Source: an uncultured Siphonobacter sp.
GTDB lineage: Bacteria > Bacteroidota > Bacteroidia > Cytophagales > Spirosomataceae
NCBI GenBank assembly: GCA_913774715.1
Contig: CAJYHS010000057.1
Coordinates: 1-59,846 of the forward strand
Direction: 5' to 3'
Length of the DNA stretch: 59,846 nt
Part shown: positions 12,418 to 57,878 of the stretch, piece after piece
Layout of the letters: every line of letters begins with the position of its first letter
Position numbering within the stretch: the stretch's first letter is position 1
The notes under the pieces: model-generated
What the model saw: only the letters and a program-made list of their open reading frames with translations
Told to the model about the DNA's origin: nothing
Database searches by the model: none
Program-made: the position numbers and the translations under genes

Positions 12418-12455
12418 TGTCCGGTATCGTACTCTCAACTGTCCATTATCGAACA
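12418..12455 (+). promoter_or_regulatory. Enhancer-like double palindrome, permease unit 1
   Basis: Two 16-bp sites related to TGTCCGNNNNCGGACA: one begins TGTCCGGTATCGTAC at 12418 and the other is TGTCCATTATCGAACA at 12440-12455. Their centres are about 22 bp apart. The same double site stands before the permease units at 35828, 46560 and 57725. The gap to the -24-like hexamer is 65 bp, about one helical turn longer than the 54-55 bp at the other three. Confidence 0.65.
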
Positions 12456-12520
12456 TTATATCTGTTTGTTTAATTATTAATACATTGATTATTAATTGTT
12501 TGTATAAATTTATCTGATTA

Positions 12521-12536
12521 CGGCATGAGAATTGAA
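12521..12536 (+). promoter_or_regulatory. Sigma-54-like promoter, permease unit 1
   Basis: CGGCAT-GAGAA-TTGAA fits the -24 part of TGGCAC-N5-TTGCA well and the -12 part partly (TTGAA for TTGCA). The ATG at 12563 is 26 bp beyond it. Confidence 0.45.
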
Positions 12537-12562
12537 TACTCCTGATAAAAGGATCGCGAGTT

Positions 12563-14992
12563 ATGCTTAGAAACTACTTCATCGTTGCGTGGCGAAATCT
12601 GGTTCGGAATCGGGCCTTTACGCTAATTAATATCACGGGGCTGGCTTTAGGACTGGCTACCTGTTTGCTGATTATGCTTTTCGTAACGGATGAGCTAAGC
12701 TATGATCGCTTTCACGAAAAGGCTGACCGCATCGTTCGGGTAGTATTTAGGGGGAATACGCAGGGCGGAGCGATTAAAGATGCTCACGTCATGCCTCCAA
12801 CGGCCCGTACCCTGAAAAGCAGCTTTCCTGAAGTGGAAGAGGCGACCCGTTTTCGGATGGCCGGGACCCCTTTCGTGAGTTATGGTAACAAAAGCCTGCG
12901 GGAAAGTGTACTGGCGTATGCCGATTCGAATATTTTCCAGGTCTTTACTTTACCCCTTCTCAAAGGCGACGCCAGAACGGCTCTCATGAAGCCTTCATCA
13001 ATGGTCATTTCGGAAACGGTAGCTCAGAAATATTTTGGAGATACTGACCCCATTGGCAAAGTGCTGGAGATCAGAGACTGGAAAAGTTCCTTTCAGGTTA
13101 CTGGTGTCATGAAAGACCTTCCCCAGAACTCACACTTTCATTTTGATATGCTGGCCTCCATGTCAGGTTTGGCCGAAGCCCAGTCTAACTCCTGGATGAC
13201 GTCTGAGTTTTTTACCTATCTCGTCCTTCGTGAAGGATCGGATTATAAAAAGCTGGAAGCCAAGTTACCTAAAGTTGTTGCTTCGAAGCTTGGGCCACAA
13301 CTGGAAAAAGCCTTTGGCATGAGCTATGAGGAGTTCTGGAAGAAGGGCAACTCCCTGGGGCTGTTTCTGCAACCCATTACCGATATTCACCTGCACTCTG
13401 ATTTTCCCTATGACCTTTCCGCTCCTGGTAACGCACAAACAGTCTACATCGCCGGAGCAATTGCCCTATTAATGTTGCTGATTGCCTGCATTAACTTCAT
13501 GAATCTGTCTTCAGCAGGGGCTTCCAAGCGGGCCCGGGAAGTAGGCATTCGTAAAGTGTTAGGGTCAGCTCAGTCCGAGTTAATGCGTCAGTTTCTAGTT
13601 GAGTCGATGTTATTAACGGGCATCGCTTTATTCCTCGCCCTATGGATGGTCGATCTGGCGTTGCCTGCGTTTAACGACTTGTCAGGAAAACATTTAGGCT
13701 TACCTTTTCTGGCTAATCCCATTATAGTATTCGGCCTGATTTTGCTGGTAGCCCTGGTGGGCTTGCTGGCTGGAAGTTATCCCGCTTTTTTCCTTGCTTC
13801 CTTTAAACCCTTAGCGGTTTTGAAAGCCGGAAGTAATACGATTAAGATGGGACAGGGAAGTCTGAATTTCAGAAATGGACTCGTCGTTTTCCAGTTTTTC
13901 ATTTCCATCGCCCTGATGATTTGCACGACCGTAGTCTATCGCCAGCTCTCGTTTATTGAGCATAAAGAGCTGGGCTATCAGAAAGACGAGGTAATTATTC
14001 TACCCGAAGCCTGGGCTTTGCAACAAAATCAGCACGCTTTTCGGCAGCGATTACTGGGGGATTCCCGGGTGCAATCCATCAGTTCTTCGGACTATGTTCC
14101 CGCTGGTCCGAGTAACAATAATAACTTCTTTGTAGCTCCCGATCATAACCCTGATTTGTTAGTAAAAACTCTGCGATATGACGTTGATCTTCAATACATT
14201 CCAACGCTGGGAATTCAGATGAAAGAAGGACGGAATTTCTCGGAAAAATTCGCTACGGATTCCTCAGGGATTATTCTTAACGAAGCCGCTGTTCGTTCGC
14301 TAGGCTGGAAAGGCAATGTGCTGGGCCGTACACTGACCAGCCGGGAAAATAATGGAACCGTTGAAACCTATCAGGTGATTGGCGTGGTAAAAGATTTCCA
14401 TTTCCGGTCTTTACACGAATTGATTACGCCTTTGGTAATGACGCAGAAAAGTCAGGCCGGAAACCTGATTATCAAAACCAGAACCAAAGATGTGGCGGGC
14501 TTACTACAAACCATACAGAATGAATGGAAGCGTTACCCGTCGGAGGTGCCTTTCAGTTATTCTTTCCTGAATGATCGTTTTTCAAACACGTATGAGGAAG
14601 AACAGAAAACCGGAACGATTCTGAGCATTTTTGCGGGGTTAACCATCTTCGTAGCCTGTCTGGGACTCTTTGGCTTAGCGACGTTTACCGCTCAGCAACG
14701 GACGAAAGAGATTGGCGTTCGTAAGGTATTAGGAGCTTCAACTGGCAGTATTCTGGCTCTGCTCTCCCGTGATTTTCTTAAACTGGTAGGGGTAGCTTTT
14801 CTTATGGCTATTCCACTGGCCTGGTATGCCATGCATGAATGGCTTCAGGATTTTGCCTACCGCATTTCGCTGGAATGGTGGGTGTTTGCTTTGGCGGGTT
14901 TACTGGCTATTGCCATTGCCCTGATCACGGTAAGTTTTCAGAGCGTAAGAGCGGCTCTGGTCAATCCGGTGAAAAGTCTGAAATCGGAATAA
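12563..14992 (+). CDS. Two-module FtsX/MacB-type permease (P1)
   Basis: An 809-residue inner-membrane protein of the MacB/FtsX class with two fused modules. Module 1 has an N-terminal helix (about 20-42), a MacB-PCD periplasmic domain and an FtsX core near 290-425 with ACINFMNLS (from about 308). Module 2 repeats this, with its FtsX core near 690-805 (CLGLFGLATF, KEIGVRKVLGAS). It ends in NPVKSLKSE, a tail shared by all ten permeases here. No ATP-binding cassette gene is nearby. It is the first gene of a three-permease run and sits behind the enhancer/promoter at 12418-12536. Possible roles are lipoprotein, peptide or lipid handling; the substrate is unknown. Confidence 0.9.
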   Translation: MLRNYFIVAWRNLVRNRAFTLINITGLALGLATCLLIMLFVTDELSYDRFHEKADRIVRVVFRGNTQGGAIKDAHVMPPTARTLKSSFPEVEEATRFRMAGTPFVSYGNKSLRESVLAYADSNIFQVFTLPLLKGDARTALMKPSSMVISETVAQKYFGDTDPIGKVLEIRDWKSSFQVTGVMKDLPQNSHFHFDMLASMSGLAEAQSNSWMTSEFFTYLVLREGSDYKKLEAKLPKVVASKLGPQLEKAFGMSYEEFWKKGNSLGLFLQPITDIHLHSDFPYDLSAPGNAQTVYIAGAIALLMLLIACINFMNLSSAGASKRAREVGIRKVLGSAQSELMRQFLVESMLLTGIALFLALWMVDLALPAFNDLSGKHLGLPFLANPIIVFGLILLVALVGLLAGSYPAFFLASFKPLAVLKAGSNTIKMGQGSLNFRNGLVVFQFFISIALMICTTVVYRQLSFIEHKELGYQKDEVIILPEAWALQQNQHAFRQRLLGDSRVQSISSSDYVPAGPSNNNNFFVAPDHNPDLLVKTLRYDVDLQYIPTLGIQMKEGRNFSEKFATDSSGIILNEAAVRSLGWKGNVLGRTLTSRENNGTVETYQVIGVVKDFHFRSLHELITPLVMTQKSQAGNLIIKTRTKDVAGLLQTIQNEWKRYPSEVPFSYSFLNDRFSNTYEEEQKTGTILSIFAGLTIFVACLGLFGLATFTAQQRTKEIGVRKVLGASTGSILALLSRDFLKLVGVAFLMAIPLAWYAMHEWLQDFAYRISLEWWVFALAGLLAIAIALITVSFQSVRAALVNPVKSLKSE

Positions 14993-15114
14993 ACGTAATG
15001 AACCACAGCGTTACTCAGCGTCGCTACGTGCTAGTGAATACGGCTCTTTTAAGGAATTGCTCCGAGTAACTCTGTGCTGAACCTTGTGTCTATCTGTGGT
15101 TAAAAATCACTACT

Positions 15115-17514
15115 ATGCTACGTAACTATTTCCTGATCGCCATTCGTAATTTGTTGAAAAACAAGGTATATTCCTTCATTAACGTCGGGGGATTAGCCGT
15201 AGGAATGGCCGTTGCTCTATTGATTGGGTTCTGGATTCATGATGAGATTTCGTATAATACCTATCATCAGAGTTATGATCGGGTAGGGCAGATCATGCAG
15301 CAGCAAACTTCTAACGGCGAGGTAAGTACGGAAATGTCCATTCCGTTACCGCTGGGGAATGAGCTAAAGACTACGTATGGAGGACATTTCAAATACCTGG
15401 CACTGGCTTCCTGGGAAGGTAGTCATATCCTGACTTACGGCGACAAAAAAATGTCCTACCCGGGTTTATACATGGATGCGGACGCTCCGAAAATGCTGTC
15501 GCTGCGGATGAAACGTGGTTCTCAGGACGGACTGAAAGATCCGCATTCGATCATCCTCTCCGAATCTACCGCTCAATCCTTATTTGGGGACAAAGACCCC
15601 ATCAATAAGATTCTTCGAATTGATAATAAGCTGGATGTGAAGGTAACGGGTGTTTATGAAGATGTGCCTAATAATTCCCGTTTCCGCCAAGTGACGTTCA
15701 TTGCTCCCTGGGATTTATATATCACAACCGAACGCTGGTTTGAGCGAGCCAAAACGCAGTGGGGCAATAACTCCTTTCAGCTCTTCGCTCAGATTGCGGA
15801 TAACACTGATTTTGAGACCGTAAACCGGGCCATTGTAAATGCGAAGCTCAACAAATTAAGCAAGGCCGAGCAAAAGTATAAAGCTGCGATTTTCGTACAT
15901 CCCATGGCCCATTGGCACCTGCACTCCAATTGGGATAAGAATGGGTATCAAACGGGTGGAGCCATTGAATACGTCTGGTTATTTGGCATCATTGGTGTGT
16001 TTGTATTACTGCTGGCCTGTATCAATTTTATGAATCTTAGTACGGCCCGTAGCGAAAAACGAGCAAAGGAAGTAGGCATTCGAAAAGCCATTGGCTCGTT
16101 ACGTCAGCAGCTGATCGCTCAGTTTTTCACGGAATCCCTGCTGGTCGTTCTGGTGGCTTTTGCTTTATCTATTCTGCTGGTTGAAATTTCATTGCCCTGG
16201 TTTAATCAGATTGCCGATAAGCGAATTATGTTTCTCTGGAATAATGTAAACTTCTGGATGATCAGTCTGGCTTTTGTATTAAGTACCAGTTTGCTGGCCG
16301 GAAGTTATCCCGCTCTGTACCTCTCTTCGTTCCAGCCCGTGAAAGTGTTAAAAGGCACCTTTATGGCGGGACCGTTGGCCGCATTACCCCGTAAGGTTTT
16401 AGTAGTCTTACAATTTACCGTTTCCATTACACTGATCATCGGAACGGTCGTTGTCTATCAGCAAATTCAGTATTCCAAGAACCGTCCGGCGGGTTTTAAT
16501 CGGGAAGGACTGGTCATGATTCAGATGAAATCGCCCGATTTTTTTGGTAAATATGAGGTTTTGCGAAATGAGCTTAAAAGCGTCGGAGCGATTGAAGAAA
16601 TGACGGAATCTTCAAGTCCTTTGACGGAGATATGGTCGAGTAGTTCGGCCTTCAACTGGGCGGGGAAAGATCCTAATCTGGATGTGGATTTCGGTACAAT
16701 TTTCGTTACCTATGATTATGGAAAAACCGTAGGCTGGCAATTTCGCGAGGGGCGGGATTTATCGACTGCTCATGCCACGGATTCCTCCGCTATTATTCTG
16801 AATGAATCTGCTGCCCGGTTTGCTGGTATTAAAGATCCGGTTGGTAAAGTCATAACCTGGGGTAGCAAGGGAGAATCACGGGATTACACCATCATTGGCG
16901 TAGTAAAAGACATGATCATGGGCTCGCCTTACGGTCCCGTGAAACCTACGGTTTATCTGCCCCATATAGATAGCTTCAGCTGGATGGTGTTCCGGCTCAA
17001 TCCCAGGATAAGTACGCATGAATCCCTGGCGAAACTAGAGTCTGTCCTGAAGCGAATCATTCCCACCGCTCCCTTCGATTATCAGTTTGCGGATGAAAGT
17101 TACGGTCGCAAGTTTGCGGCTGAAGAGCAGATCGGAACGCTTGCAGGCGTGTTTGCCGGGCTGGCCATTCTGATTTCCTGTTTAGGGTTATTCGGATTAG
17201 CATCCTTCGTTGCCGAACAGCGAACCAAAGAAATCGGCGTGAGAAAAGTGCTGGGGGCTTCGGTGCTGAGTTTATGGCAGCTGTTATCCAAAGATTTTGT
17301 CGTGCTGGTCTTGCTTTCCTGCGGAATCGCCATTCCGATTGCTCATTACTTCATGGCTGACTGGCTTGAAAAATATGAGTATCGTACCACGATTCAGTGG
17401 TGGGTATTCATCGTTGCTGGTCTGGGAGCTTTGGCCATTACTTTAATTACCGTAAGCTATCAGGCGATTAGTGCCGCTTTGATGAATCCGGTGAAGAGTT
17501 TGAAGTCTGAGTAA
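15115..17514 (+). CDS. Two-module FtsX/MacB-type permease (P2)
   Basis: A 799-residue paralogue of P1, 122 bp downstream of it and with no enhancer-like sites of its own, so probably co-transcribed. The first FtsX core starts near residue 285 (LACINFMNLSTARSEKRAKE) and the second near 680 (SCLGLFGLASF). Together with the permeases at 28421 and 44167 it forms a close subgroup that shares STARSEKRA and a LPRKVLVVLQF segment at the start of module 2. The spacer before it contains an imperfect inverted repeat (ACCACAG ... CTGTGGT). Substrate unknown. Confidence 0.9.
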   Translation: MLRNYFLIAIRNLLKNKVYSFINVGGLAVGMAVALLIGFWIHDEISYNTYHQSYDRVGQIMQQQTSNGEVSTEMSIPLPLGNELKTTYGGHFKYLALASWEGSHILTYGDKKMSYPGLYMDADAPKMLSLRMKRGSQDGLKDPHSIILSESTAQSLFGDKDPINKILRIDNKLDVKVTGVYEDVPNNSRFRQVTFIAPWDLYITTERWFERAKTQWGNNSFQLFAQIADNTDFETVNRAIVNAKLNKLSKAEQKYKAAIFVHPMAHWHLHSNWDKNGYQTGGAIEYVWLFGIIGVFVLLLACINFMNLSTARSEKRAKEVGIRKAIGSLRQQLIAQFFTESLLVVLVAFALSILLVEISLPWFNQIADKRIMFLWNNVNFWMISLAFVLSTSLLAGSYPALYLSSFQPVKVLKGTFMAGPLAALPRKVLVVLQFTVSITLIIGTVVVYQQIQYSKNRPAGFNREGLVMIQMKSPDFFGKYEVLRNELKSVGAIEEMTESSSPLTEIWSSSSAFNWAGKDPNLDVDFGTIFVTYDYGKTVGWQFREGRDLSTAHATDSSAIILNESAARFAGIKDPVGKVITWGSKGESRDYTIIGVVKDMIMGSPYGPVKPTVYLPHIDSFSWMVFRLNPRISTHESLAKLESVLKRIIPTAPFDYQFADESYGRKFAAEEQIGTLAGVFAGLAILISCLGLFGLASFVAEQRTKEIGVRKVLGASVLSLWQLLSKDFVVLVLLSCGIAIPIAHYFMADWLEKYEYRTTIQWWVFIVAGLGALAITLITVSYQAISAALMNPVKSLKSE

Positions 17515-17620
17515 TACTAGCAATAACCCCAGAGCTATGCTTGTCAAAGGCAGAGTAACTCTGGGATTGTCATGTCTGATTGACTAGATTGAACGAATAG
17601 TAGAAATAACCTCTGAACGT

Positions 17621-20014
17621 ATGCTCAAGAACTACATTCAAATCACACTTCGGAACCTGAGCCGCAATCCCCTGTATAGTTTCCTGAATATTGGCGGTCT
17701 GGCAGTTGGTCTGTCGGTTAGTATTCTGATCTTACTGTACGTAGTTCATGAGTATAGTTACGAGAACTTTCAGAGCAACGGCAACCGAATTTTTCAGGTA
17801 TTAGACCGCATTCCGTTCGGAGAGAGTACCATGCAGGTGCAGGCTATGTCGGCTCAGCTAGGTCCACGAACGCAGGCGTCCCGGCCGGACTTAGTCGAAG
17901 CGAACGTACGGATGCGTTACGCCGGACGGACGGTATTGAAAACAGTGAGCAACATTCATTCCTTTGAAGATAAACTGCATTTTGCCGATGCTGCTTTTTT
18001 TAAGGTTTTTACGTATCCCTTACAGAAAGGCAACCCCGCGACTGCTCTGACTCGAGTTAATACCATTGTACTCTCACAAGCCTTAGCGTTAAAATACTTT
18101 GGTAATGAAAATCCGCTTGGCAAAACGCTGACGTATGACAATAAAATTAACCTCGAAGTAACTGGAGTACTGGAAGAAGTACCTTCCAATAGTACGCTTC
18201 AGTTTGAGGGATTAATTTCGTTTAGCACTCAGAAAAACCTGACTCCCTACGACAAAGGCTTAGAAATGCAATTGGGATATAGCCACGTCGGAGCGGGAGC
18301 TTTTAATACGTATTTTTTGCTGACTAAAGCAGCCGATAAGGGCAACGTTGAAAAGTTAATCAAGCAACTTCAATCAAAAGATACTCCAGTCAAAAAAGGA
18401 CAGCCTACCGAGGAGTTTTTGCTGGAATCTTTCCCCGATTTGCATTTAAAAGGTTTGATGGTTAACCATTCCCAGCAATACCAGAATCTGTTTGCCGGAA
18501 TAGCCATCGCCATACTTTTGCTGGCGTTGATTAACTACATGAATCTTACCACCGCCCGAGCTACGCAACGGGCCAAAGAAGTAGGCGTTCGGAAAGTTTT
18601 GGGCGGCCTGCGAAGTAATCTGGCCATGCAGTTTTATACCGAATCGGTTTTAGTAACGCTGATTGGTTTCGCCCTGAGTTTATTACTGGTAGAAGGATTA
18701 AGACCTTTTTTCTTTGACTTGCTGGAGTTACAAATCAATGCTTCTTTTCTGACAACTCCGCTGTTTCTAAGTCTATTACTGGGCTTGTTGGTTATCTGTA
18801 CGCTACTGGCGGGTAGTTACCCGGCCTTATTACTTTCCAGTTTTGCTCCGGCGGAAGTCCTGAAGGGAACGCTTTCCAAACTGGGGGGAGTTAATCTTCG
18901 CCGGACGCTAACCGTTTTTCAGTTCTCCATTTCGGTAGGGTTAATTGTCTGTAGTTTAATCGTAAAAAATCAGCTTGATTTTCTTCGGATGCAGAACGTC
19001 GGACTCGAAAAAGAAGGCATTGTCGTTCTGGAAATTCCCAAAAATATGAATACCCATTACGCGGCTTTCAAGCAGGAATTAAGGCGGCAAAGTGGAATTC
19101 AGTCGGTAGCGGCGGCGAGCTGGCCTTTGTATAAATCAGGGGTCAATATGTATTATACTCAATCGCCGGTAACGAAAAAAGATGTGCCCTTCAAGGTAAC
19201 GGACGTAGATGCCGCTTTCTTCGAAACCATGCACGTGCGTTGGAAGAAAAAGCCACAGAGACTGGATCAGGGTTCGGTTTTAATTCTGAACGAATCAGCG
19301 GTTAAAGAATTTGGCTTTACCGAGAGTCCAGTTGGCGAAAAAATTGGTTTAGGGAGCAATGCCACTGAAATTGCCGGGGTCATTGAGGACTTTAATCTGT
19401 TTTCAAGTAAGGAAAAAACGGAGGGGTTAGGTATTACTGTAGTGGCTGATACGAGCAGCGAAATAATGAATTATGGGGGCTGTCTCTACCTGAAACTAGC
19501 CACTGGAACGGACGTGCAGAAGCAACTGAAAAACGTAGAAAGCATTTTCAGAACGTACGAGAATGAATATCCCTTTACATATTATTTTTTAGATGAAGCT
19601 TACGATGCTCTCTATAAAACCGAATCTAAACTGGGAACCATGCTTACGACCTTTACGAGCATTGCGATTCTCATTGCCTGTCTGGGCTTATTTGGTCTGG
19701 CAACCTTTGCGGTGGAAACTCGTCGGAAAGAGATTGGAATCAGGAAAGTACTGGGAGCAAGCCTGACCAGTATTACTCTTTTGCTATCTAAAGAGTTTAT
19801 GAAACTGGTATTTATCGCCAGTGCCCTGGCTTTTCCTTTGGCCTGGTATTTCATGCAGGATTGGCTGAAAGACTATGCCGTCCGCATTGAAATAGGCTGG
19901 ATAGCCTTTGCCACGGCTGGAGTACTGGCCTTGCTCATTGCCTTCGTTACCGTGAGCAGTCAGGCCATCCGAGCGGCCAAAGCCGATCCGGTCAAAAGCC
20001 TGAAATCAGAATAA
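17621..20014 (+). CDS. Two-module FtsX/MacB-type permease (P3)
   Basis: The third permease of the plus-strand run, 797 residues, 106 bp after P2. It is more divergent than P2: the first FtsX core reads INYMNLTTARATQRAKEVGVRK (split: INYMNLTTARA, then KEVGVRK; about 302 onward), and its second periplasmic domain is shorter and lacks the usual GRDFS motif (it has VRWKKKPQR there). The C-terminal tail is DPVKSLKSE. The repeat array at 20031-20368 begins 17 bp after the stop. Confidence 0.9.
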   Translation: MLKNYIQITLRNLSRNPLYSFLNIGGLAVGLSVSILILLYVVHEYSYENFQSNGNRIFQVLDRIPFGESTMQVQAMSAQLGPRTQASRPDLVEANVRMRYAGRTVLKTVSNIHSFEDKLHFADAAFFKVFTYPLQKGNPATALTRVNTIVLSQALALKYFGNENPLGKTLTYDNKINLEVTGVLEEVPSNSTLQFEGLISFSTQKNLTPYDKGLEMQLGYSHVGAGAFNTYFLLTKAADKGNVEKLIKQLQSKDTPVKKGQPTEEFLLESFPDLHLKGLMVNHSQQYQNLFAGIAIAILLLALINYMNLTTARATQRAKEVGVRKVLGGLRSNLAMQFYTESVLVTLIGFALSLLLVEGLRPFFFDLLELQINASFLTTPLFLSLLLGLLVICTLLAGSYPALLLSSFAPAEVLKGTLSKLGGVNLRRTLTVFQFSISVGLIVCSLIVKNQLDFLRMQNVGLEKEGIVVLEIPKNMNTHYAAFKQELRRQSGIQSVAAASWPLYKSGVNMYYTQSPVTKKDVPFKVTDVDAAFFETMHVRWKKKPQRLDQGSVLILNESAVKEFGFTESPVGEKIGLGSNATEIAGVIEDFNLFSSKEKTEGLGITVVADTSSEIMNYGGCLYLKLATGTDVQKQLKNVESIFRTYENEYPFTYYFLDEAYDALYKTESKLGTMLTTFTSIAILIACLGLFGLATFAVETRRKEIGIRKVLGASLTSITLLLSKEFMKLVFIASALAFPLAWYFMQDWLKDYAVRIEIGWIAFATAGVLALLIAFVTVSSQAIRAAKADPVKSLKSE

Positions 20015-20368: not shown

Positions 20369-20371
20369 TAG

Positions 20372-30796: not shown

Positions 30797-30872
30797 AAGG
30801 AAGAGGTTTGATAACGTATGATTCAAAGATGAAAAAGCCGTATTTTTCGTTGCATGGTTTTTGAAAATGTTT

Positions 30873-30925
30873 GTTGCAGGCCAACTTTCCGAAAGCTTAG
30901 AACTTTCGGAAAGTTGGCCTGCAAC
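30873..30925. repeat. Perfect 23-bp palindrome between P5 and P4
   Basis: The arms 30873-30895 and 30903-30925 match at every base around a 7-nt loop. The inner part has the core AACTTTCCGAAAG, also present in the hairpins at 39816 and, as AACTTCCCGAAA, at 53986. No T-run follows on either strand. Confidence 0.7.
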
Positions 30926-30943
30926 AGTCGCGACTATAAACCA

Positions 30944-33337: not shown

Positions 33338-33358
33338 GGCTTTTGAGTTATTGGTGAT

Positions 33359-33411
33359 CAGGGGTTGGGTGATCGTTATCAAGACAACTGATAACAATCA
33401 CCCAACCCCTG
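33359..33411. repeat. Long palindrome between P6 and P5
   Basis: A 15-bp perfect arm (33359-33373 with 33397-33411) extended by six more pairs after one mismatch (GTTATC / GATAAC), with a 9-nt loop. It is likely an RNA stem between co-transcribed genes, perhaps for differential expression. Confidence 0.65.
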
Positions 33412-33416
33412 AAGAA

Positions 33417-35856: not shown

Positions 35857-35872
35857 TTCCAAAGTTATGCCG
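35857..35872 (-). promoter_or_regulatory. Sigma-54-like promoter, permease unit 2
   Basis: On the minus strand the sequence reads CGGCAT-AACTT-TGGAA. The -24 half fits; the -12 half has GA where GC is expected. It is 28 bp from the ATG of P6 and 55 bp from the double palindrome. Confidence 0.45.
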
Positions 35873-35927
35873 TTGGAAAGGAATAATAGGTAATATGTTG
35901 ATAATCAACGATTATGTAAAAACAAAA

Positions 35928-35965
35928 TGTCCGAAAACGAACAGTGTTTCGTTCGCTTTCGGACA
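35928..35965 (-). promoter_or_regulatory. Enhancer-like double palindrome, permease unit 2
   Basis: The arms TGTCCGAAAACGAAC (35928-35942) and GTTCGCTTTCGGACA (35951-35965) are nearly perfect inverted copies of each other. Each arm also reads as one imperfect site of the TGTCCGNNNNCGGACA type. The same arrangement is found before units 1, 3 and 4. Confidence 0.7.
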
Positions 35966-41745: not shown

Positions 41746-44142
41746 TTATTCGGAACGGAGCGATTTAACCGGATTGGCCAGAGCCGTTCGAATGGTGTTG
41801 AAACTGATCGTTGCTAAGGCAATGGCCGTGGTAACTAAAGCCGCTACTGCAAAGACCTGCCAGCTAATGTCAATGCGATAGGCAAAGTTTTCAAGCCAGA
41901 GATTCGTGGCATACCAGGCTGCCGGAATGGCAATGATAAAAGCGACCAGCACCAGCGTCAGGAAGTGCTGCGATAGTAGCTGAGAGAGTTGAAGTACTGA
42001 AGCTCCCAAGACTTTCCGGATACCGATTTCCTTGGTGCGTTGTTGCATGGAAAGACTCGCCAGACCAAACAGTCCGATGCACGAGATGAAGATGGTCAGT
42101 GCGGCTCCAAAGGTGATGATCTGCTTCCATTTGGCTTCTTCCTCGTAGTTTTTATAGTTCAACTGATCCATGAAATCATATTGAAAGGGCCGGTACGGAT
42201 TGAGTTTTCGGTAGGTTGTTTCGATAGATGCCAAGGCCTGCGGTACTTGATCGGGCTGAATGCGAATGAGAAATCTGCCAAAGGGTAAATCAGGATTCGT
42301 ACTGAATAACATCGGGCCAATTTTTGCTTTCAGCGAACCATAGTGATAATCCTTCACAACGCCGACAATGGTTAATTGGGTATCATTACCGTTCAGAAAA
42401 TCCACCGTTTTACCAATGGCTGAGCCTTTCCAGCCCGCTTTCTTTATAAAGGCTTCGTTCACGATAACCGACTGGGTAGAATCGGCAGGAAAAGCAGGTG
42501 AAAAATTCCGTCCTTCTACCAGCGGAATCTGCATGGTGGATAGAAAATGCTCGTCAATGTGTCGATAAGCTACATCCAGATCTACTCCATTGGCTTTCGA
42601 GATCGTTACCCATTCCCCATCCATGATCGGAGCCACGTGCGTAACTCCGGGAGCGTGACTGAATTCATTCGTAAATGTTTTCTGCCGGAGAGCCGTCGGA
42701 CTATCTTCCTTATGACTCCAGCCCACGGTAAGTGAGAGCAGGTTTTTATCATTATAACCCAGGTCTTTGTGAGTCAGGTAATTGAATTGAGAATAAATGA
42801 ATAGGGTAGTGATAATGAGGAAAGTGGCTAGCGAAAACTGCAAGACAACCAGTCCTTTCGCCATGAAATTATTACCTGAAAGTCGAAAGCGATTATTCAG
42901 CGTTTTGAGCGGATCAAAGCCGGATAATACCAGAGCTGGATAAAAGCCAGCGGCAAAACCGGTGATGATAAATAGGGCGATAATTCCAAGAACCAGCTTG
43001 TAATCAAAAAGGTAGCTCAGACTTAGCTGTTTATTTGCTAGTTCATTGAAAAAAGGTAAACTGGCTTCGGCCATAATAATGGCGATGACAAAGGCCAGAA
43101 AACACAGCAGAAAAGATTCGCCCAGAAACTGACGGATCAGCTGTGATCGTTGCCCACCGACTACTTTCCGAATGCCAATTTCCTTGCGACGACGTAAGGA
43201 TTGAGCTACCGTCAGATTTACAAAATTGATGCAGGCAATGATCAGAACGAAAGCCGCGATTCCCAGCAAAATGTAAGAATAGATGGGGTTACCGGCCCGA
43301 GGCGTATATTCCGTTCCGGTATCCAGGTGCATGGCCATGAAGGGCTGTAAACTCCAGTGAAAATTATCTCTGAAGCCGTGTTTTCTTGCTTCGTCGCGTT
43401 CTTTCTGGGAGTAACGCAAATAGACTTGATTCAACTTTTTTTCTACGGCCTGAAGGTTGGCCGAAGGGTGTAGTAAGAAGTACGTAGGATAGGATAACCA
43501 TAGCCAGCCGTCATCTTTTTCATGAACTTCCTGGTAGATAAAAGGAAGCAGAATTTTGAACTGAATCGTTGAGTTTTGCGGGGCATTTTTAGCAACGCCC
43601 GTTACCACAAACGTTTCGAATTTGTTATTGATTTCGAACTCCAGCTTCTTTCCCAAAGCCTGTGTCGTGCCGAAGTATTTTTGAGCCGTTTCTTCCGTTA
43701 ATACCAGCGAATGCAGGTCAGAAAGAACCGTTTTGGGGTTACCTTGCAGCAAGGGAAAAGAAAAGAGGGAAAAGAAGTTTTTATCGGCCCATGAGGCTTT
43801 TTCGTTGAAAGTTTCACTGCCTGAACGTACGATAAAGTTACGTTCCTGAACGCGTGAAAAATCCTGAATTTCAGGAACGTTAGCCTTTAGAAGGGGACCC
43901 TGAACCATAGCTGCAATCCCCAACTTCTTAGTATTCCCATTATTTTCCTGAATAGTGCAGGTAATGCGATACAACTGATCTTTCTTCGCCTGAAAGGCAT
44001 CGAAAGAAACCTCGTCTTTGGTATACAGAATAATAAGCATACAACAAGCCAGACCAATGCTCAGACCAGCAATGTTGATGATCGAAAAAACCTTACTCCG
44101 AATGAGATTTCGCAGGGCAATTTTGAAGTAATTGAGTAACAT
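41746..44142 (-). CDS. Two-module FtsX/MacB-type permease (P7)
   Basis: A 798-residue permease, 24 bp after P8 on the same strand, the tightest spacing of any pair here. The first core reads CINFVNLTVAQSLRRRKEIGIRK (short: INFVNLTVAQ) and the second SCIGLFGLASLSMQQRTKEIG. The tail is NPVKSLRSE, with Arg in place of Lys. It has no own enhancer-like site and probably depends on the promoter before P8. Confidence 0.9.
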   Translation of the reverse strand: MLLNYFKIALRNLIRSKVFSIINIAGLSIGLACCMLIILYTKDEVSFDAFQAKKDQLYRITCTIQENNGNTKKLGIAAMVQGPLLKANVPEIQDFSRVQERNFIVRSGSETFNEKASWADKNFFSLFSFPLLQGNPKTVLSDLHSLVLTEETAQKYFGTTQALGKKLEFEINNKFETFVVTGVAKNAPQNSTIQFKILLPFIYQEVHEKDDGWLWLSYPTYFLLHPSANLQAVEKKLNQVYLRYSQKERDEARKHGFRDNFHWSLQPFMAMHLDTGTEYTPRAGNPIYSYILLGIAAFVLIIACINFVNLTVAQSLRRRKEIGIRKVVGGQRSQLIRQFLGESFLLCFLAFVIAIIMAEASLPFFNELANKQLSLSYLFDYKLVLGIIALFIITGFAAGFYPALVLSGFDPLKTLNNRFRLSGNNFMAKGLVVLQFSLATFLIITTLFIYSQFNYLTHKDLGYNDKNLLSLTVGWSHKEDSPTALRQKTFTNEFSHAPGVTHVAPIMDGEWVTISKANGVDLDVAYRHIDEHFLSTMQIPLVEGRNFSPAFPADSTQSVIVNEAFIKKAGWKGSAIGKTVDFLNGNDTQLTIVGVVKDYHYGSLKAKIGPMLFSTNPDLPFGRFLIRIQPDQVPQALASIETTYRKLNPYRPFQYDFMDQLNYKNYEEEAKWKQIITFGAALTIFISCIGLFGLASLSMQQRTKEIGIRKVLGASVLQLSQLLSQHFLTLVLVAFIIAIPAAWYATNLWLENFAYRIDISWQVFAVAALVTTAIALATISFNTIRTALANPVKSLRSE

Positions 44143-44166
44143 GGCAGAGGAAGGGCTAATTCTGTT

Positions 44167-46560
44167 TTACTCACTTTTCAAACTCCGCACCGGATCGGCC
44201 TGAGCCGCCCGAATGGCTTGATAACTAACGGTGATGAGCGTTACTGTCAAAGCAATGAACCCAGCCGAAGCGAACACGATCCAGCCAATTTCAATACGAA
44301 TGGTATATTTCTGAAGCCACTGATTCATGTAATAATAAGCCAGCGGCGAGGCGATCAGGAATGAAATAACCACGAGTACAATGAAGTCTTTGGATAATAA
44401 TCCCCAGAGATTCGTGACACTGGCCCCCAAAACTTTACGCACGCCAATTTCCTTGCGACGCTGTTCGGCCATGAAAGAAGCCAGTCCGAAAAGACCCAGG
44501 CAGGAGATGAAAATGGCCAGTCCGCCGAAGGTGAAAGCCAGGGTTCCTAACTGTTGCTCGGCCTGAAAACGACGCTCAAAATCCGTATCCATGAAATGAT
44601 GGTCAAAGGGTACATCGCGACCGTATTTCTGGTAAATAGTCTGGATTTTTTCAAGACTCGCTGAAGCCGCCTGATTGCCTTTGAGACGAACGACCATTGT
44701 AGACATATTTCCGCCCTGAACAGTCAGATTAATAAACATTGGATCGGTCACTTCGTAAGGCGAACCGTAAGCGAAGTTTTTCACCACTCCCACGACCGTA
44801 AAGCGTTCGTAGTAAGGACTATCAGCCTCACCCCGAGTGATGGTCTCTCCAATTGGATTTTTAAATCCCAGCGTTTTGACGGCAGATTCATTGATGATCA
44901 CCGCCCGTGAAGTATCTCCGGGAAAGGCCGGGGAGAAATCCCGACCGGCCACGAGTTGTACGCCCGTTGTTTTCAGAAAGTCGTAACTCACCCGCATGAA
45001 TTCAAAGACCTGATTGGCCTGTTCCGGGCGGCGACCCCGCCAGTTGAAACCCCAGCCATTGCTACCGTCTGAACCACCGGGAACGGAACTGGTACAATAG
45101 ACATTTTCGGCGACTCCGGTAGACATGATTTCATTCCGAAGCGTCTGCCAGTGGTTGGCGGCATCACCTTCCATCGAGAAGTACATTAGATTTTCCTGAT
45201 CGTAACCCAACGGCTGGTTTTTTGCGAATTGCACCTGCTGATACACCAGAATCGTAGAAATAATGAGGGCGATGGAAAACGAAAACTGAAGAATAACGAG
45301 CACCTTACGGGGAAGGGAAGCCGAACGCCCCACTTGCATAGTTCCTTTCAGCACGGTAACCGGATTGAAAGCAGACAGGTAAAAAGCAGGGTAACTTCCT
45401 GCCAATATACCCGTGATGATTACAATGGCCAGGGCGGCAGTCCAATAAAGTGGTTGCGTCAAGTCGAGATCTAACTGCTTTTCCACCAGATTATTAAACC
45501 AGGGTAAGCTTAACTCAACCAGACCAATCGCCACGAGAAAACCGAAGAAAGCCAGTAATAAAGATTCGCCAAGAAACTGACTGATTAACCCACTTCGCAT
45601 CGCTCCTGAAGTTTTGCGGATGCCTACTTCGCGGGCTCGTTTTTCGCTGCGAGCGGTGCTCAAATTCATGAAGTTGATGCAGGCAATCAGTAACACAAAA
45701 CCAGCAATAATGCTGAATAACTGCACATTTTCGATGCGACCGCCCACGGGAACGCCGTTTTCGAAGCGACCGTACAGGCGTGATTTAGTAAGGGGATACA
45801 GAAAAATGGCTCCGTTACTATCTTTCTTTTCCTGAGTGGTATAAATATTTTTGATTTTGGCATTAACTGCCGCCAGATCAGCTTTGGGGTCGAGTTCTAC
45901 GTAAATCTGAAAGTTATTCGCACTCCAGCCGTAAAAGGCCCAGCCAATGCTGTCGAGAAACTTCATTGGAACCAAAGCTTCAAACGCAAAACGTGAATGC
46001 TTAGGATAGTCTTTCAGAACTGCAGATACCTTCAGGTCGTACTTGCCATAATACCGAATGACTTTATTAATTGGGTCTTCATCTCCAAATAAAGCTTTAG
46101 CCGTTGATTCCGTAAGAATAATGGATTTCGGATCTTTAAAAGCAGTCTTTAAGGAACCCTTCGCAGCTTCAAAAGAGAAAATATTTAGAAAATCAGGCTC
46201 TACGCCCATGACCTGCTTTTTCAACGCTTTATCCTGATACGCCAGAGCAATGGGCGATTCCCAATCGGTCATGGTAACCCGCTTGATTTCAGGAATATTT
46301 TTTCGGAGGTAATCGCCCAGTAACCCGCCCTGGCTGGAAGAGGTCCAGGTTTTAGTTTCGGATTCTTTAAAATTCCGCATCACACGGTAGACCCAATCTT
46401 TCTTTTCGTGAAAGGTATCATAACTGAATTCATCCAGTACCCACAGCATGATCATAATACTGGCGGCCATGCCTACGGCCAGACCCATGATATTAATGAA
46501 GCTGTAGCCGGGGTTTTTGATCAGATTCCGAAGGGCGATTTTTAGGTAATTCTGGAGCAT
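44167..46560 (-). CDS. Two-module FtsX/MacB-type permease (P8)
   Basis: A 797-residue permease, first gene of the P8-P7 unit. The first core reads CINFMNLSTARSEKRAREVGIRK (short: STARSEKRAREV), placing it near P2 and P4; module 2 has LPRKVLVILQF. The tail DPVRSLKSE has a Lys-to-Arg change. Upstream are the -24/-12-like element and the double palindrome at 46662. Confidence 0.9.
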   Translation of the reverse strand: MLQNYLKIALRNLIKNPGYSFINIMGLAVGMAASIMIMLWVLDEFSYDTFHEKKDWVYRVMRNFKESETKTWTSSSQGGLLGDYLRKNIPEIKRVTMTDWESPIALAYQDKALKKQVMGVEPDFLNIFSFEAAKGSLKTAFKDPKSIILTESTAKALFGDEDPINKVIRYYGKYDLKVSAVLKDYPKHSRFAFEALVPMKFLDSIGWAFYGWSANNFQIYVELDPKADLAAVNAKIKNIYTTQEKKDSNGAIFLYPLTKSRLYGRFENGVPVGGRIENVQLFSIIAGFVLLIACINFMNLSTARSEKRAREVGIRKTSGAMRSGLISQFLGESLLLAFFGFLVAIGLVELSLPWFNNLVEKQLDLDLTQPLYWTAALAIVIITGILAGSYPAFYLSAFNPVTVLKGTMQVGRSASLPRKVLVILQFSFSIALIISTILVYQQVQFAKNQPLGYDQENLMYFSMEGDAANHWQTLRNEIMSTGVAENVYCTSSVPGGSDGSNGWGFNWRGRRPEQANQVFEFMRVSYDFLKTTGVQLVAGRDFSPAFPGDTSRAVIINESAVKTLGFKNPIGETITRGEADSPYYERFTVVGVVKNFAYGSPYEVTDPMFINLTVQGGNMSTMVVRLKGNQAASASLEKIQTIYQKYGRDVPFDHHFMDTDFERRFQAEQQLGTLAFTFGGLAIFISCLGLFGLASFMAEQRRKEIGVRKVLGASVTNLWGLLSKDFIVLVVISFLIASPLAYYYMNQWLQKYTIRIEIGWIVFASAGFIALTVTLITVSYQAIRAAQADPVRSLKSE

Positions 46561-46591: not shown

Positions 46592-46607
46592 TTAGAAAGT
46601 TATGCCA
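46592..46607 (-). promoter_or_regulatory. Sigma-54-like promoter, permease unit 3
   Basis: On the minus strand it reads TGGCAT-AACTT-TCTAA. The -24 half is perfect for TGGCAY; the -12 half has TA at the GC position. The ATG of P8 is 31 bp beyond it. Confidence 0.5.
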
Positions 46608-46661
46608 AATGAAGGCTGATTATATAATGGTCTGATAGTGAATGTTTTGTGTAAATGGTAA

Positions 46662-46698
46662 TGTCCGTAATCGGACAGGTTCTGTTCAATTACGGACA
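46662..46698 (-). promoter_or_regulatory. Enhancer-like double palindrome, permease unit 3
   Basis: TGTCCGTAATCGGACA (46662-46677) is a perfect 16-bp palindrome and gives the clearest version of the site. The second site, TGTTCAATTACGGACA, is 46683-46698. The centres are 21 bp apart and the gap to the -24 hexamer is 54 bp. Confidence 0.75.
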
Positions 46699-52119: not shown

Positions 52120-52273
52120 AGATCGATTAATAAGACTTTTACAAGAAGGGATGCAAAAGTAAGCGGCTTTTTAGTAACTGATGTGTAAGGTAGGGGAAAG
52201 ATTTAGGAATCTGAGTGGGATGAAGGAGGGGTTATTCTTGATTATGGCTTGTAGAATCCATTATCTCTAAATA

Positions 52274-52297
52274 TTTGACAACTATTTTGTTGTCAAA
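52274..52297 (+). promoter_or_regulatory. 24-bp palindrome in the GS / 52303 divergent gap
   Basis: TTTGACAAC (52274-52282) and GTTGTCAAA (52289-52297) form a perfect inverted repeat with a 6-bp AT centre. The size fits an operator for a dimeric regulator; it lies 6 bp before the GTG at 52303. Confidence 0.45.
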
Positions 52298-52302
52298 ATA
52301 GT

Positions 52303-52611: not shown

Positions 52612-52740
52612 AGCAATCATTCGAATAACTGGGTAGAGCTCATTTTATGATCATTTATTTAAATGCTGTGTAGGTGGATTTTACAGATCAATCGAATAAA
52701 GTTTACATCTTTGACCTAAATCTACCTAACACTAAAACAA

Positions 52741-53336: not shown

Positions 53337-53338
53337 AG

Positions 53339-53382
53339 TAGTAGGGAGTTTTGATGCTGTTAAAGTTCAGAACTCCCTACTA
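53339..53382. terminator. Bidirectional terminator
   Basis: TAGTAGGGAGTT (53339-53350) pairs with AACTCCCTACTA (53371-53382), lying between the convergent DUF4240-like and cyclophilin genes. Confidence 0.75.
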
Positions 53383-53385
53383 TTA

Positions 53386-53970: not shown

Positions 53971-53985
53971 TAATAGTATATAATG

Positions 53986-54018
53986 AACTTCCCGAAAGTT
54001 TATAAGTTTCGGGAAGTT
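53986..54018. repeat. Hairpin between hydrolase and cyclophilin
   Basis: AACTTCCCGAAA (53986-53997) pairs with TTTCGGGAAGTT (54007-54018). It resembles the palindromes at 30873 and 39816, with a C in place of a T. Confidence 0.6.
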
Positions 54019-54023
54019 ACAAA

Positions 54024-54881: not shown

Positions 54882-54989
54882 GGGTCTTGAGGTCTATAAA
54901 GCGTTAGTTACGAGTGCTTTCGAAAGATGCCGATTTTTACCCGAAGACGGAAATGCAACGGTACCTTTTCCAGATAAATGAAGATGCCA

Positions 54990-55023
54990 AAGAAAAAAAC
55001 GCTGGTCCCTTGGGCCAGCGTTT
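54990..55023 (-). terminator. Terminator of permease P9
   Basis: AAACGCTGG (54997-55005) pairs with CCAGCGTTT (55015-55023). The A-run at 54993-54999 becomes a T-run on the minus strand. It lies 5 bp after the P9 stop. Confidence 0.75.
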
Positions 55024-55027
55024 GGTG

Positions 55028-57418
55028 TTATTCCGTTTTTAAACTCTTGACCGGATTCGCCGTGGCGGCTTTAATCGTGAGCGAACTTACCGTTACCAAG
55101 GCGATTCCCAGGGCCAGCACGCCCGCCAGCGGGAATACCCAGATCGGCATGGACGTTCGATAGTGAAAGTCTTCCAACCAGCGGGTCATGACGTACCAGG
55201 CGATGGGGCTGGCAATCACCACGGCAATGAAGACCAGTTTTAGAAATTCTTTGGAAAGTAACGTCGTCACCTGCCAGGCACTGGCTCCGAGTACTTTCCG
55301 AACGCCAATTTCCTTGGTTCGCTGAAAAGTAGCATAAGATGTTAACCCGATCAAGCCCAGGCAGGCAATGAAAATGGCAATGCTGGCGAAGTAAGTGAAC
55401 AGCTTGCCGAATTGCTCTTCGCCTTTGTATTTATCATTGAAAGACTGGTCAATGAAGAAATAATCAAAGGGTCGTTCGGGAACGGCCTGTTTCCAGAGTT
55501 GCTCAACCGCCGCCAGCGTTTTAGGAATGTGCTGAGCCTTAATTTTTATCGAAATCTGTTGAAATTCGTGTGGGTTAATACGGAAAGTAGCCGGGCTGAT
55601 TTCTTCCCGTAAAGAAGCATCATGGAAGTTTTTGACTACACCAATGATTATCCCTTTTCGACCCCATTGATCAAACTTTTTACCTACGATTTGTTCCGGG
55701 GCCGTATAGCCCAAGCTGCGTACTGCGGCTTCATTCACCAATAAAGCCTGCGTAGAATCGGTGGAAAATTTTGTAGAAAAGCTTCTTCCAGCGATGATCG
55801 GAATCTGATACTGATCGAAGAAGTTATAATCAATCGAGTAGAGACTAATGTTGGAAGCCTGTAACTCACCCTTCTGGTTTTCCAAATGAGTATAAGCTCC
55901 CATAGATCCGCTACCGGGAACGGTAGAAGATTCAGTTACGGATTCCACGCCCGGAATTTTAGAAAACTGAGCTTTAAGCGTAGCTCCGTGCCGAGCCATG
56001 TATTGCGGATCATTCAGGTTTAAAATGAGCATCTGATCTTTCGAAAAGCCCAGGGACTGCTGACGCATATAGGCCAGTTGATGATACACCACAAAGGTGC
56101 AGACCATCAGACTTACCGAAATAACAAACTGAAAAACCACCAGCGATTTTCGAAGAATCAGGCCCTGTCGGCTGGTCGCAAAACGTCCTTTTAAAACGGT
56201 TATCGCTTTCATTCCCGATAAAACCAGGGCGGGGTATAGACCTGCCATAACTCCTACCAGCAAGGCCAGACCGAGCAGGATCAGCCAGAAGGTTGGATTA
56301 CTGAACGTGCTGCCAAGGACCGTTTTTCCGGAAAACGCATTGAAGGAAGGAAGAAGTAACTCGCAGAGTAATACAGCAAGCCCGAACGCGAACGTACTTA
56401 GTAATACGTATTCACTCAGAAACTGGAAGGTAAGCTGTTGCCGGCCGGCTCCTACCACTTTTCTTACGCCGACTTCTTTGGCCCGCTCGCTGGCTCGGGC
56501 GATGGTCAGGTTAATGAAATTGATGCAGGCCAGAATCAGGATAAATCCGGCGATAACCGAAAAAATATAGACGTTTTTCAAACTTCCCTGTTGGGGTGCC
56601 CCGCGATCCGATTTCAGGTAAAGATCCTGCAAAGGTTCCAGGTGCAGGATATACCACATCTGATCTTTCGACATTGCCTTGCCAATCAAGCGATCTATTT
56701 CGCCTCGGATTTTGGTTTCCAGGGCCTGAGGATTGGTATTTCCTTTGAGTACAAAATAAGAATAAAATCCAAAATTACCCCATTGTTCGTCCAGACCCGG
56801 CTGCATATGTTTAGTCAGCGTGGACATAGATAGGAGCAGGTCAAAAGGAATATGGCTGGCTTCAGGAATGTCTTTTAATACACCCGTTACTTTTACTGGA
56901 AATTGCCCTTCCATCCGTAGCGTCTGGCCCATCGGGTCCTGTTCGCCGAAGTATTTTTTTGCCGTCTTCTGAGTTAATACTACGCTAAAAGGAGCTTTCA
57001 ACGCAGTGCGGGCATCGCCCTTCAGAAGCGGAAATGTGAAGACATTAAAAACGGTGGAATCGGCCAGGTAAAGATCATTTTCCTGAAATTTCTGATCCTT
57101 GTACGTAAAAACCGCATTTCGCTTCCAAAGACGTGTATACGCCTCTATTTCTGGTAGTCGTTCGCCCAACTGCGGGGCCATCGGAGCAGAAGTAACATTG
57201 GAACGGATGGTTTCGGTGGGCGTTTTGATGTCAGTGACCAGTCGGTAAATCTGATTGCCTTTTTCATGAAAAGTATCGTAACTCAGTTCATGTCGAACGT
57301 AGAGGCTAATAAGCAGACATGCCACTAACCCAACGGATAATCCGGCGAGGTTAATGATAGTGAAGAGCCGATGTTTCAGCAGGCTACGAAGGGCTATCTT
57401 GAAATAATTTTTTAGCAT
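55028..57418 (-). CDS. Two-module FtsX/MacB-type permease (P9)
   Basis: A 796-residue permease, 13 bp after the small gene at 57432, so translated from the same transcript. The first core reads CINFINLTIARASERAKEVGVRK (short: INLTIARASERA) and the second ACLGLIGLTSYATFQRTKEIGVRK (short: CLGLIGLTSYATFQR). It ends in NPVKSLKTE. Its unit carries its own enhancer/promoter at 57771-57878 and a terminator right after the stop, so it is a clean two-gene operon. Confidence 0.9.
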   Translation of the reverse strand: MLKNYFKIALRSLLKHRLFTIINLAGLSVGLVACLLISLYVRHELSYDTFHEKGNQIYRLVTDIKTPTETIRSNVTSAPMAPQLGERLPEIEAYTRLWKRNAVFTYKDQKFQENDLYLADSTVFNVFTFPLLKGDARTALKAPFSVVLTQKTAKKYFGEQDPMGQTLRMEGQFPVKVTGVLKDIPEASHIPFDLLLSMSTLTKHMQPGLDEQWGNFGFYSYFVLKGNTNPQALETKIRGEIDRLIGKAMSKDQMWYILHLEPLQDLYLKSDRGAPQQGSLKNVYIFSVIAGFILILACINFINLTIARASERAKEVGVRKVVGAGRQQLTFQFLSEYVLLSTFAFGLAVLLCELLLPSFNAFSGKTVLGSTFSNPTFWLILLGLALLVGVMAGLYPALVLSGMKAITVLKGRFATSRQGLILRKSLVVFQFVISVSLMVCTFVVYHQLAYMRQQSLGFSKDQMLILNLNDPQYMARHGATLKAQFSKIPGVESVTESSTVPGSGSMGAYTHLENQKGELQASNISLYSIDYNFFDQYQIPIIAGRSFSTKFSTDSTQALLVNEAAVRSLGYTAPEQIVGKKFDQWGRKGIIIGVVKNFHDASLREEISPATFRINPHEFQQISIKIKAQHIPKTLAAVEQLWKQAVPERPFDYFFIDQSFNDKYKGEEQFGKLFTYFASIAIFIACLGLIGLTSYATFQRTKEIGVRKVLGASAWQVTTLLSKEFLKLVFIAVVIASPIAWYVMTRWLEDFHYRTSMPIWVFPLAGVLALGIALVTVSSLTIKAATANPVKSLKTE

Positions 57419-57431
57419 ACGATGGAGAGCA

Positions 57432-57725
57432 TTAGGCGAGTTGGGTAACGGCCCGCATCTGGCTTAAATCTTCTTTTTTAACGAAGGTGATCGGAACAAA
57501 ATCGTCCGTAGGTGCCCCGATGTAATACAGTGACCAGTCCTGATCGTACGTCGTCAGCATTTCCCGCAGGCATTCCACGCGATTGAACGCAGGCGTGGAG
57601 CAGTCATCCCAGCGAAACAGCTCGACCCGGTAATGCAAATCCTGCTTTTGTCCGTTAATGACCACCGAAATTTCAATTTCATGTTTTCCTGGTAACGAAG
57701 GTATAGGTATAGCGATGTAGGACAT
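57432..57725 (-). CDS. Small conserved-looking protein, first gene of the P9 unit
   Basis: A 97-residue soluble protein, no signal peptide or membrane helix, no family recognised. It has a beta-rich first half (PSLPGKHEIEISVVI), an Asp-Cys pair near the middle (WDDCSTPAFNRVECL, two cysteines) and a polar C terminus. It is translated just before P9 and its start lies 45 bp after the sigma-54-like promoter. The operon structure is the best evidence that it is a real gene, and that it works with the permease. Confidence 0.7.
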   Translation of the reverse strand: MSYIAIPIPSLPGKHEIEISVVINGQKQDLHYRVELFRWDDCSTPAFNRVECLREMLTTYDQDWSLYYIGAPTDDFVPITFVKKEDLSQMRAVTQLA

Positions 57726-57770
57726 ACTCTTGGCAGTTTATGAAGTAACTGTATCAGGTTAATATATACA

Positions 57771-57786
57771 TTTTAAAAGTATGCCA
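57771..57786 (-). promoter_or_regulatory. Sigma-54-like promoter, permease unit 4
   Basis: On the minus strand it reads TGGCAT-ACTTT-TAAAA. The -24 half is perfect; the -12 half has AA at the GC position. The start of the small gene at 57725 is about 45 bp beyond it. Confidence 0.45.
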
Positions 57787-57841
57787 GCTTCATTGGTAGG
57801 TTGTTAAAGGTCTGATTTTCAATATAATATGGAAATATAAA

Positions 57842-57878
57842 TGTCCGAAATTGAACGTTATATGTACAATTTCGGACA
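57842..57878 (-). promoter_or_regulatory. Enhancer-like double palindrome, permease unit 4
   Basis: TGTCCGAAATTGAAC (57842-57856) and GTACAATTTCGGACA (57864-57878) form two related sites with centres about 21 bp apart, 55 bp from the -24-like hexamer. The stem could also act as a terminator for P10, but the same arrangement at three other loci favours a binding site. Confidence 0.7.

Follow-up and report, generated by a model that had tools for sequence, protein, structure and literature searches.

Permease units and paired palindromes of the window

Contig CAJYHS010000057.1 of an uncultured Siphonobacter sp. (Bacteroidota; assembly GCA_913774715.1), a stretch of 59,846 nucleotides that we refer to as the window, carries ten permease genes that lie in units sharing one upstream architecture; this architecture, its predicted regulator and the genes behind it are our subject here. 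Unit 1 (12563..20014, + strand) consists of three duplicated MacB_PCD/FtsX permeases (12563-14992, 15115-17514 and 17621-20014), unit 2 (28421..35828, − strand) of three duplicated permeases, the first with its ATG at 35828, and unit 3 (41746..46560, − strand) of two. Unit 4, also on the − strand, holds one duplicated permease (55028..57418) behind a predicted first gene of 97 aa that is conserved in Siphonobacter (57432..57725). The tenth permease, whose 3′ part occupies 57902..59846 (− strand), is cut by the contig end and is the last gene of an operon on contig C187, where the predicted enhancer (C187:11110-11146), outside the window, adjoins an activator gene.

Each of the four units is preceded by a paired palindromic site, the predicted enhancer, supported by motif match, genome search and profile match, at 12418..12455 (+ strand, unit 1), 35928..35965 (−, unit 2), 46662..46698 (−, unit 3) and 57842..57878 (−, unit 4); the two palindromes are 22, 22, 21 and 21 bp apart from centre to centre, respectively. 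Outside each site lies a −24/−12 element: CGGCATGAGAATTGA (12521..12535, +) at 65 bp from the enhancer in unit 1, CGGCATAACTTTGGA (35858..35872, −) at 55 bp in unit 2, TGGCATAACTTTCTA (46593..46607, −) at 54 bp in unit 3 and TGGCATACTTTTAAA (57772..57786, −) at 55 bp in unit 4, the last recurring in the Siphonobacter sequences L045 and G020. A sequence-only reading of the window had reported these double palindromes, with 21-22 bp between centres, and YGGCAT elements at these same distances, and we reproduced both. It had also placed every element ahead of a start codon, which holds for units 1 to 3 and, provided that the unit begins with the 97-aa open reading frame at 57432-57725, for unit 4. 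The spacers of units 2 to 4 contain exact consensus matches to a predicted IHF-type site on the − strand (TATCAACATATTA, 35891..35903; TATCAGACCATTA, 46625..46637; and AATCAGACCTTTA, 57805..57817), each 24 bp from the enhancer.

The outer half-sites of the pair (TGTCCG/CGGACA) are strong and the inner ones merely GNAC/GTNC. Single 16-mers with up to 3 mismatches were seen 22 times for 17 expected, which is not above chance, so that single palindromes cannot separate true sites from background, whereas the pair can. Throughout the genome (5.73 Mb in 279 contigs, the window being contig C57), the 38-mer was found in 4 places and the 37-mer in 3 at ≤3 mismatches, compared with 0 and 1 for the reversed controls, and each was found in 3 places at ≤2 mismatches, with controls at 0. 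The six full paired sites of the genome (≤2 mismatches) are the four of the window, the C187 site and C197:703-740. Behind the C197 site come genes for an ABC ATPase and for a TolC-type channel and, further along, lysS and rpoN, and the C187 site heads an ECF (extracytoplasmic function) sigma factor, an HlyD adaptor, an ATPase and permeases; TTTGGCACAGCTTTRG lies between site and gene at both. Pairs lying mostly away from permease genes had been named in advance as the outcome that would speak against a permease regulon, and all six sites head permease units or this ATPase-TolC pair.

A profile trained without the genome under study matched only these six sites below E = 0.005, with 150 of 2376 first-look candidates scored by the program, and picked the correct direction at all six (E from 5×10−12 to 5×10−5). 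Its alignment comprised 42 of 49 listed promoters; L031, L041, L053, L064, L074, L076 and L104 were omitted, as judged by eye, for being near-copies or for belonging to the window's own genus or to other phyla. A possible seventh member, C117:5637 (E = 0.008), lies at a contig end ahead of a secreted-looking 217-aa protein. The 3-mismatch match C108:51672 is absent from the profile matches and is probably due to chance.

Element, helical phasing and bend site in other genomes

Scanning the pair alone against 84,980 species genomes gave at least 118 loci, with 122 sites among the matches listed, to which all counts below over 122 sites, 75 elements and 98 promoter sides refer. Ninety-five of the 118 listed loci are titled Bacteroidota (Spirosoma, Larkinella, Dyadobacter, Pontibacter, Chitinophaga, Pedobacter, Flavobacterium, Tannerella, Prevotellaceae and others) and 23, including Ignavibacteria and Kapaibacterium, are not. 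At 30-90 bp outside the sites, TGGCAC was the top enriched hexamer (46 versus 7 in a background stretch). TGGCAY occurred 73 times at 40-69 bp from the 244 site edges versus 19 times in the 150-bp interval from 100 to 249 bp, and TGG-N8-TTG 52 times in the 50-59 bp bin versus 0-7 times in each other bin. At 95 of the 122 sites, at least one side shows a sigma-54-like element at a distance of 42-68 bp, compared with 14, 22, 21 and 22 at four other offsets. The distances of the 75 YGGCAY elements form three groups 10-11 bp, or one helical turn, apart, with 8 at 43-46 bp, 44 at 50-55 bp, 23 at 62-67 bp and none between (Rayleigh R = 0.72 at 10.5 bp, as large in 0 of 20,000 uniform draws). Of the 48 sites that lack YGGCAY, 31 point towards a transporter gene; 14 of these have TGGTAY, 10 have another TGG/CGG-N10-G at the main distance and 7 have nothing convincing. 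In a second set of 55 further sites, the element was present at 44.

Aligned elements of the other genomes gave the promoter consensus TGGCAYRNNNTTTG, or TGG[CT]A[CT]-N5-TTTG. Every side with [TC]GG[CT]A[CT] at 42-68 bp counts among the 98 promoter sides; some of these sides do not precede a known gene. Their −12 dinucleotide is GG in 26, GT in 26, GC in 16, GA in 13 and another in 17; a G at −13 is kept by 81 sides and a C at −12 behind that G by just 16, so that the −12 C is not conserved. The pattern expected of sigma-54 promoters, GG-N10-GC with TGGCAY at −24, is present with a relaxed −12 C. In the window, two of the four promoters keep the G, and the AA of unit 4 and the TA of unit 3 recur within the same genus. 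The −12 half, which had been regarded as the weak point of a sigma-54 assignment, mostly ceases to be one. The genome has two rpoN genes (L018:5742-7184 and L017:7520-8983), one bordering the permease cluster and the other next to a different activator.

PadR is the first gene behind the element in L052, L078 and L095, PadR-type repressors often stand beside such permeases, and paired palindromes are common among repressors, all of which would suit palindromes that are repressor operators (e.g. PadR-type) with transcription starting from an ordinary housekeeping promoter. The housekeeping −7 box of Bacteroidota is TAnnTTTG. At the corresponding place this box occurs in none of the 98 promoter sides, and a full −33/−7 pair near just one. 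The sites instead share the element TGGYAY-N5-TTTG, helically phased and without overlap with the site, and they track an AAA+ sigma-54 activator (see below), so that we regard repressor operators as very unlikely.

Aligning 42 promoters of other genomes revealed a further recurring feature of the spacer, TGATAATCAGnnnTTTA. The IHF consensus motif WATCARNNNNTTR occurs forward in 30 of the 98 spacers, mostly 19-20 or 29 bp ahead of the element, versus a mean of 0.5 and a maximum of 3 in 300 dinucleotide shuffles. In either orientation it stands between enhancer and promoter in 45 of the 98 promoter sides of this first set, compared with 0 and 1 in control stretches and with a mean of 1 and a maximum of 6 in mononucleotide shuffles. 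The 45 promoter sides of the second set gave 14 forward and 8 reverse matches (controls, 0 and 0). Exact matches are present in three of the four window promoters and in neither off-window promoter, and the genome has one HU/IHF gene. The putative IHF-type site, overlooked by the sequence-only reading, is part of the promoter design as predicted from these alignments.

The ten permeases of the window are paralogous, with identities of 30-56% (mean 37%), as would be expected if the shared upstream regions had arisen by chance or as a repeat family, that is, as functionless recent duplicates of one region carried along with the permeases. The spacers vary widely, both in the window and among the 42 aligned promoters, where site and element had been chosen to match, and the same architecture stands ahead of non-homologous genes (ATPase, HlyD, TolC, ECF sigma factor and PadR). 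Functionless copies are thus extremely improbable.

The adjoining activator and its co-occurrence with the site

The genome has three strong matches to Sigma54_activat. One of these activators, at the start of contig C119, has a receiver (PF00072), an AAA+ (PF00158) and a Fis (PF02954) domain in that order, and its gene is followed by a phosphotransferase-like gene and then by a kinase. Receiver-AAA+-Fis activators are switched on by phosphorylation, require sigma-54 and act by DNA looping, often aided by IHF. The gene is split, its first residues ending C187 and the rest continuing in C119, while one permease of the same-genus genome G020 is matched in consecutive stretches by the permease fragment at the window end (residues 166-812) and by the fragment with which C187 begins (residues 1-168), at 76-77% each. 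Together, the permease match and the split activator give the order window, C187, C119; C197 is placed on the window's other side by the order in G020. The activator gene starts about 11 kb past the right end of the window, divergent from the operon bearing the same enhancer, so the earlier suggestion that the activator is encoded elsewhere was mistaken: it is adjacent, with a kinase alongside. A single 94-kb stretch of G020 carries, in order, the kinase, the activator, the enhancer, ECF-HlyD-ATPase-permeases, further permease units, an RND operon and ATPase-TolC-LysS-RpoN. Paired sites (≤3 mismatches) number 8 in this stretch; a YGGCA element 53-55 bp away faces the gene at seven of them, and GGGCAT takes its place at the eighth.

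The activator stayed below the curated cut-offs of four NCBIfam models (score/cut-off of 402/503 for PEP_resp_reg, 386/714 for AtoC, 350/760 for ZraR and 345/559 for NtrC). In the set formed by L016:1-1365 and the orthologues L140-L168, GAFTDA replaces GAFTGA in 27 of the 27 sequences read, its own included, with 3 of the 30 not read; GAFTGA itself is found in the genome's two other activators. As far as the consulted parts of these papers go, GAFTGA is called invariant (PMC12316311), and GAFTDA is among the tolerated variants compatible with function (PMC4641369). Our guess is that GAFTDA is linked with the relaxed −12 C.

With three strong Sigma54_activat matches in the genome, a sigma-54 enhancer-promoter might be bound by another activator, either that of C152, beside the second rpoN, or that of C115, which lacks the receiver and lies beside miaB. 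We consider this quite unlikely, as it is the C119 activator that, within its own genus as well as in loci of Flavobacterium, Pedobacter and Spirosoma, adjoins and diverges from the enhancer, and its orthologues that the site counts track, these counts having been made for the C119 type only.

The co-occurrence was assessed in a family sample of 61 genomes, with the activator taken as present at E ≤ 10−140. The site was found in 41 of 49 genomes with the activator versus 3 of 12 without it (Fisher p = 2×10−4). Of these three exceptions, two are genomes of 63 and 66% completeness, and in the third a relative of the activator is present, with an alignment that starts only at residue 135. For each genome and pattern, the reversed control gave at most one match (11 over all 61 genomes), which puts the 4 sites in the 12 genomes without activator near background. 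Comparing close with mid-distance activator groups gave p = 5×10−8 for a split made after seeing the counts, so that 41/49 versus 3/12 remains the main test. A paired site lies within 1.5 kb upstream of 16 of 29 activator orthologues, in all 16 cases with the element facing away, and in eight loci (L044, L048, L054, L100, L102, L106, L135 and L137) it lies between divergent activator and HlyD genes.

These data make it highly probable, on sequence evidence, that the sites belong to sigma-54 promoters with a bipartite enhancer, bound by the C119 NtrC-type activator and looped through an IHF-type bend, that would drive an export regulon. The earlier reading of paired dimer sites acting on sigma-54 promoters gains from the unselected, phased elements, the second set of sites and the co-occurrence with the activator in other genomes.

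Several observations weigh against this interpretation. Two window promoters carry TA or AA in place of the usual G, and the spacers of the unit 1, C197 and C187 promoters contain no exact IHF-type match. Among the 122 listed sites, 27 lack an element under the 42-68 bp rule, 14 of them in Bacteroidota; the other 13 fall in the 23 non-Bacteroidota loci (e.g. Natrialba, Gordonia, Planctomycetota and Clostridia) and are probably chance matches, and at some of the 27 a YGGCAY is in fact present but its −12 half deviates. No site was found in the 1.5 kb upstream of 13 of the 29 activator orthologues or in 7 of the 12 genomes with a more distant activator (E from 10−145 to 10−157), which suggests a drifting motif or a looser link in these cases. 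In a phylum-wide sample, the signature was detected at E ≤ 0.001, under strict filters, in 7 of 61 genomes, the genome under study included. The sequences are related and some species occur in both sets, so that the p-values given here are optimistic.

Outside Bacteroidota, the paired site stands beside HlyD-ATPase-permease genes in L032 and L133 (Sphingomonas), the latter with activator and kinase genes adjoining it and no clear element, and beside permeases in L134, an Acidobacteria metagenome-assembled genome. Transfer or a wider reach of the system are both possible.

Regulon, proposed mechanism and known systems

All 13 duplicated permeases of the genome (9 whole in the window, 3 in C187 and 1 split) lie in site-headed units; the next matches to TIGR03434 in the genome reach ≤136 bits in shorter frames. 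The predicted regulon comprises these permeases, two LolD/MacB-type ATPases, an HlyD adaptor, a TolC-type channel and the ECF sigma factor, assuming that the genes behind each site form operons. The window encodes no relatives of the two ATPases. The shared site design supports the earlier proposal that the ten orphan permeases form one regulon, with the amendments that the tenth belongs to an off-window operon and that ATPases, an adaptor and TolC are included.

In other genomes, the first gene behind 75 element-bearing sides is a permease in 29 cases, HlyD in 12, an ATPase in 5, TolC in 1, the activator in 1, unclassified in 18 and none found in 9. Of the unclassified genes, 13 were scanned with Pfam (L029, L081, L090, L094 and L132 being left out), which identified 3 outer-membrane channels, 3 PadR, 1 beta-lactamase and 1 DUF2807, with 4 lacking a match; the remaining one of the 13 codes for an outer-membrane protein barrel with a carboxypeptidase-regulatory domain. 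Transporter parts (permeases, adaptors, ATPases and channels) account for 50 of the 75 first genes. In five Spirosoma loci, L021 (3544-3915), L029, L081, L094 and L132, a 124-aa open reading frame comes first behind the same enhancer-promoter. Those of L021, L094 and L132 share 51-59% identity, and those of L029 and L081 are alike in length only; the L021 product, the sole one scanned, looks secreted and has no Pfam family. The ECF sigma factor gene (L019:8428-8961) is the first gene behind a sigma-54-type promoter and is conserved in two same-genus genomes, which suggests a sigma cascade. The same conserved cluster contains an RND efflux operon, preceded by genes for an OmpR-type regulator and a kinase (462-8271), ahead of which no paired site was found within the window.

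We propose that two dimers of one NtrC-type response regulator (receiver-AAA+-Fis) would sit on the two 16-bp palindromes, two helical turns apart, and that the IHF-type site, presumably bent by the single HU/IHF protein, would let the enhancer loop onto sigma-54 RNA polymerase at TGGYAY-N5-TTTG, where ATP hydrolysis by the activator would open the promoter. The permeases may share the ATPases, and, by comparison with the exporters MacB and Dar, the signal may be a toxic compound or stress on the envelope. More tentatively, and with somewhat less than even confidence, the duplicated orphan permeases of Bacteroidota could be interchangeable membrane parts of one exporter. If so, one kinase-activator pair would fire all promoters at once and many permeases would compete for two ATPases, one adaptor and one TolC, and the shared regulon would identify the ATPase partners of orphan FtsX/MacB permeases.

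The permeases resemble ADOP (TIGR03434), the best NCBIfam match, over full length and with 281-314 bits, for all four scanned of the ten in the window, but they stay below the cut-off of 622 bits (genome maximum 351), and their ATPase genes lie elsewhere in the regulon. ADOP genes are not known to have ATPase neighbours. The regulon's ATPase, adaptor and permeases match the DarD, DarC and DarB models of the darobactin exporter and recall MacAB-TolC; the three matches are below cut-off, and the regulon counts one adaptor and two ATPases against 13 permeases. From promoter prediction, PMC12316311 reports sigma-54 control of COG0577 FtsX-like permeases, with Bacteroidia named, and claims the first such evidence. 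It shares the broad permease class with our regulon; in the portions of it consulted, we found no enhancer motif, activator, IHF-type site, phasing or regulon membership, and "IHF" and "upstream activating" have 0 occurrences in its main text as accessed. The sections consulted of PMC9723704 (start sites of Flavobacterium psychrophilum) and PMC3174227 (Solibacter) contained no sigma-54 promoter data and nothing on such permeases, respectively. In the literature searched, mostly open-access, we found no description of the enhancer, activator, phasing or IHF-type site. Sigma-54 control of FtsX-like permeases had thus already been reported at the COG level, and the regulon and its cis code appear to be new.

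For permeases without an adjacent ATPase, the analysis names an enhancer, an activator and a kinase and gives a concrete partner set. Sigma-54 in Bacteroidota gains a regulon readable across many genera by one sequence signature, and its many natural variants, which fall into three helical phases and share a recurring bend site, offer a comparative system for enhancer looping. The architecture is like that of NtrC/ZraR-type promoters, in which two dimer sites, spaced by about two turns, stand upstream of GG-N10-G(C), an IHF-type site lies between, and a receiver-AAA+-Fis activator has a kinase gene nearby. It differs in that the enhancer is TGTCCGN4-5GNAC, whereas the NtrC site is of the TGCACC type, and in that the −12 C is unconserved, GAFTDA replaces GAFTGA and the distance between enhancer and promoter is held to three helical phases.

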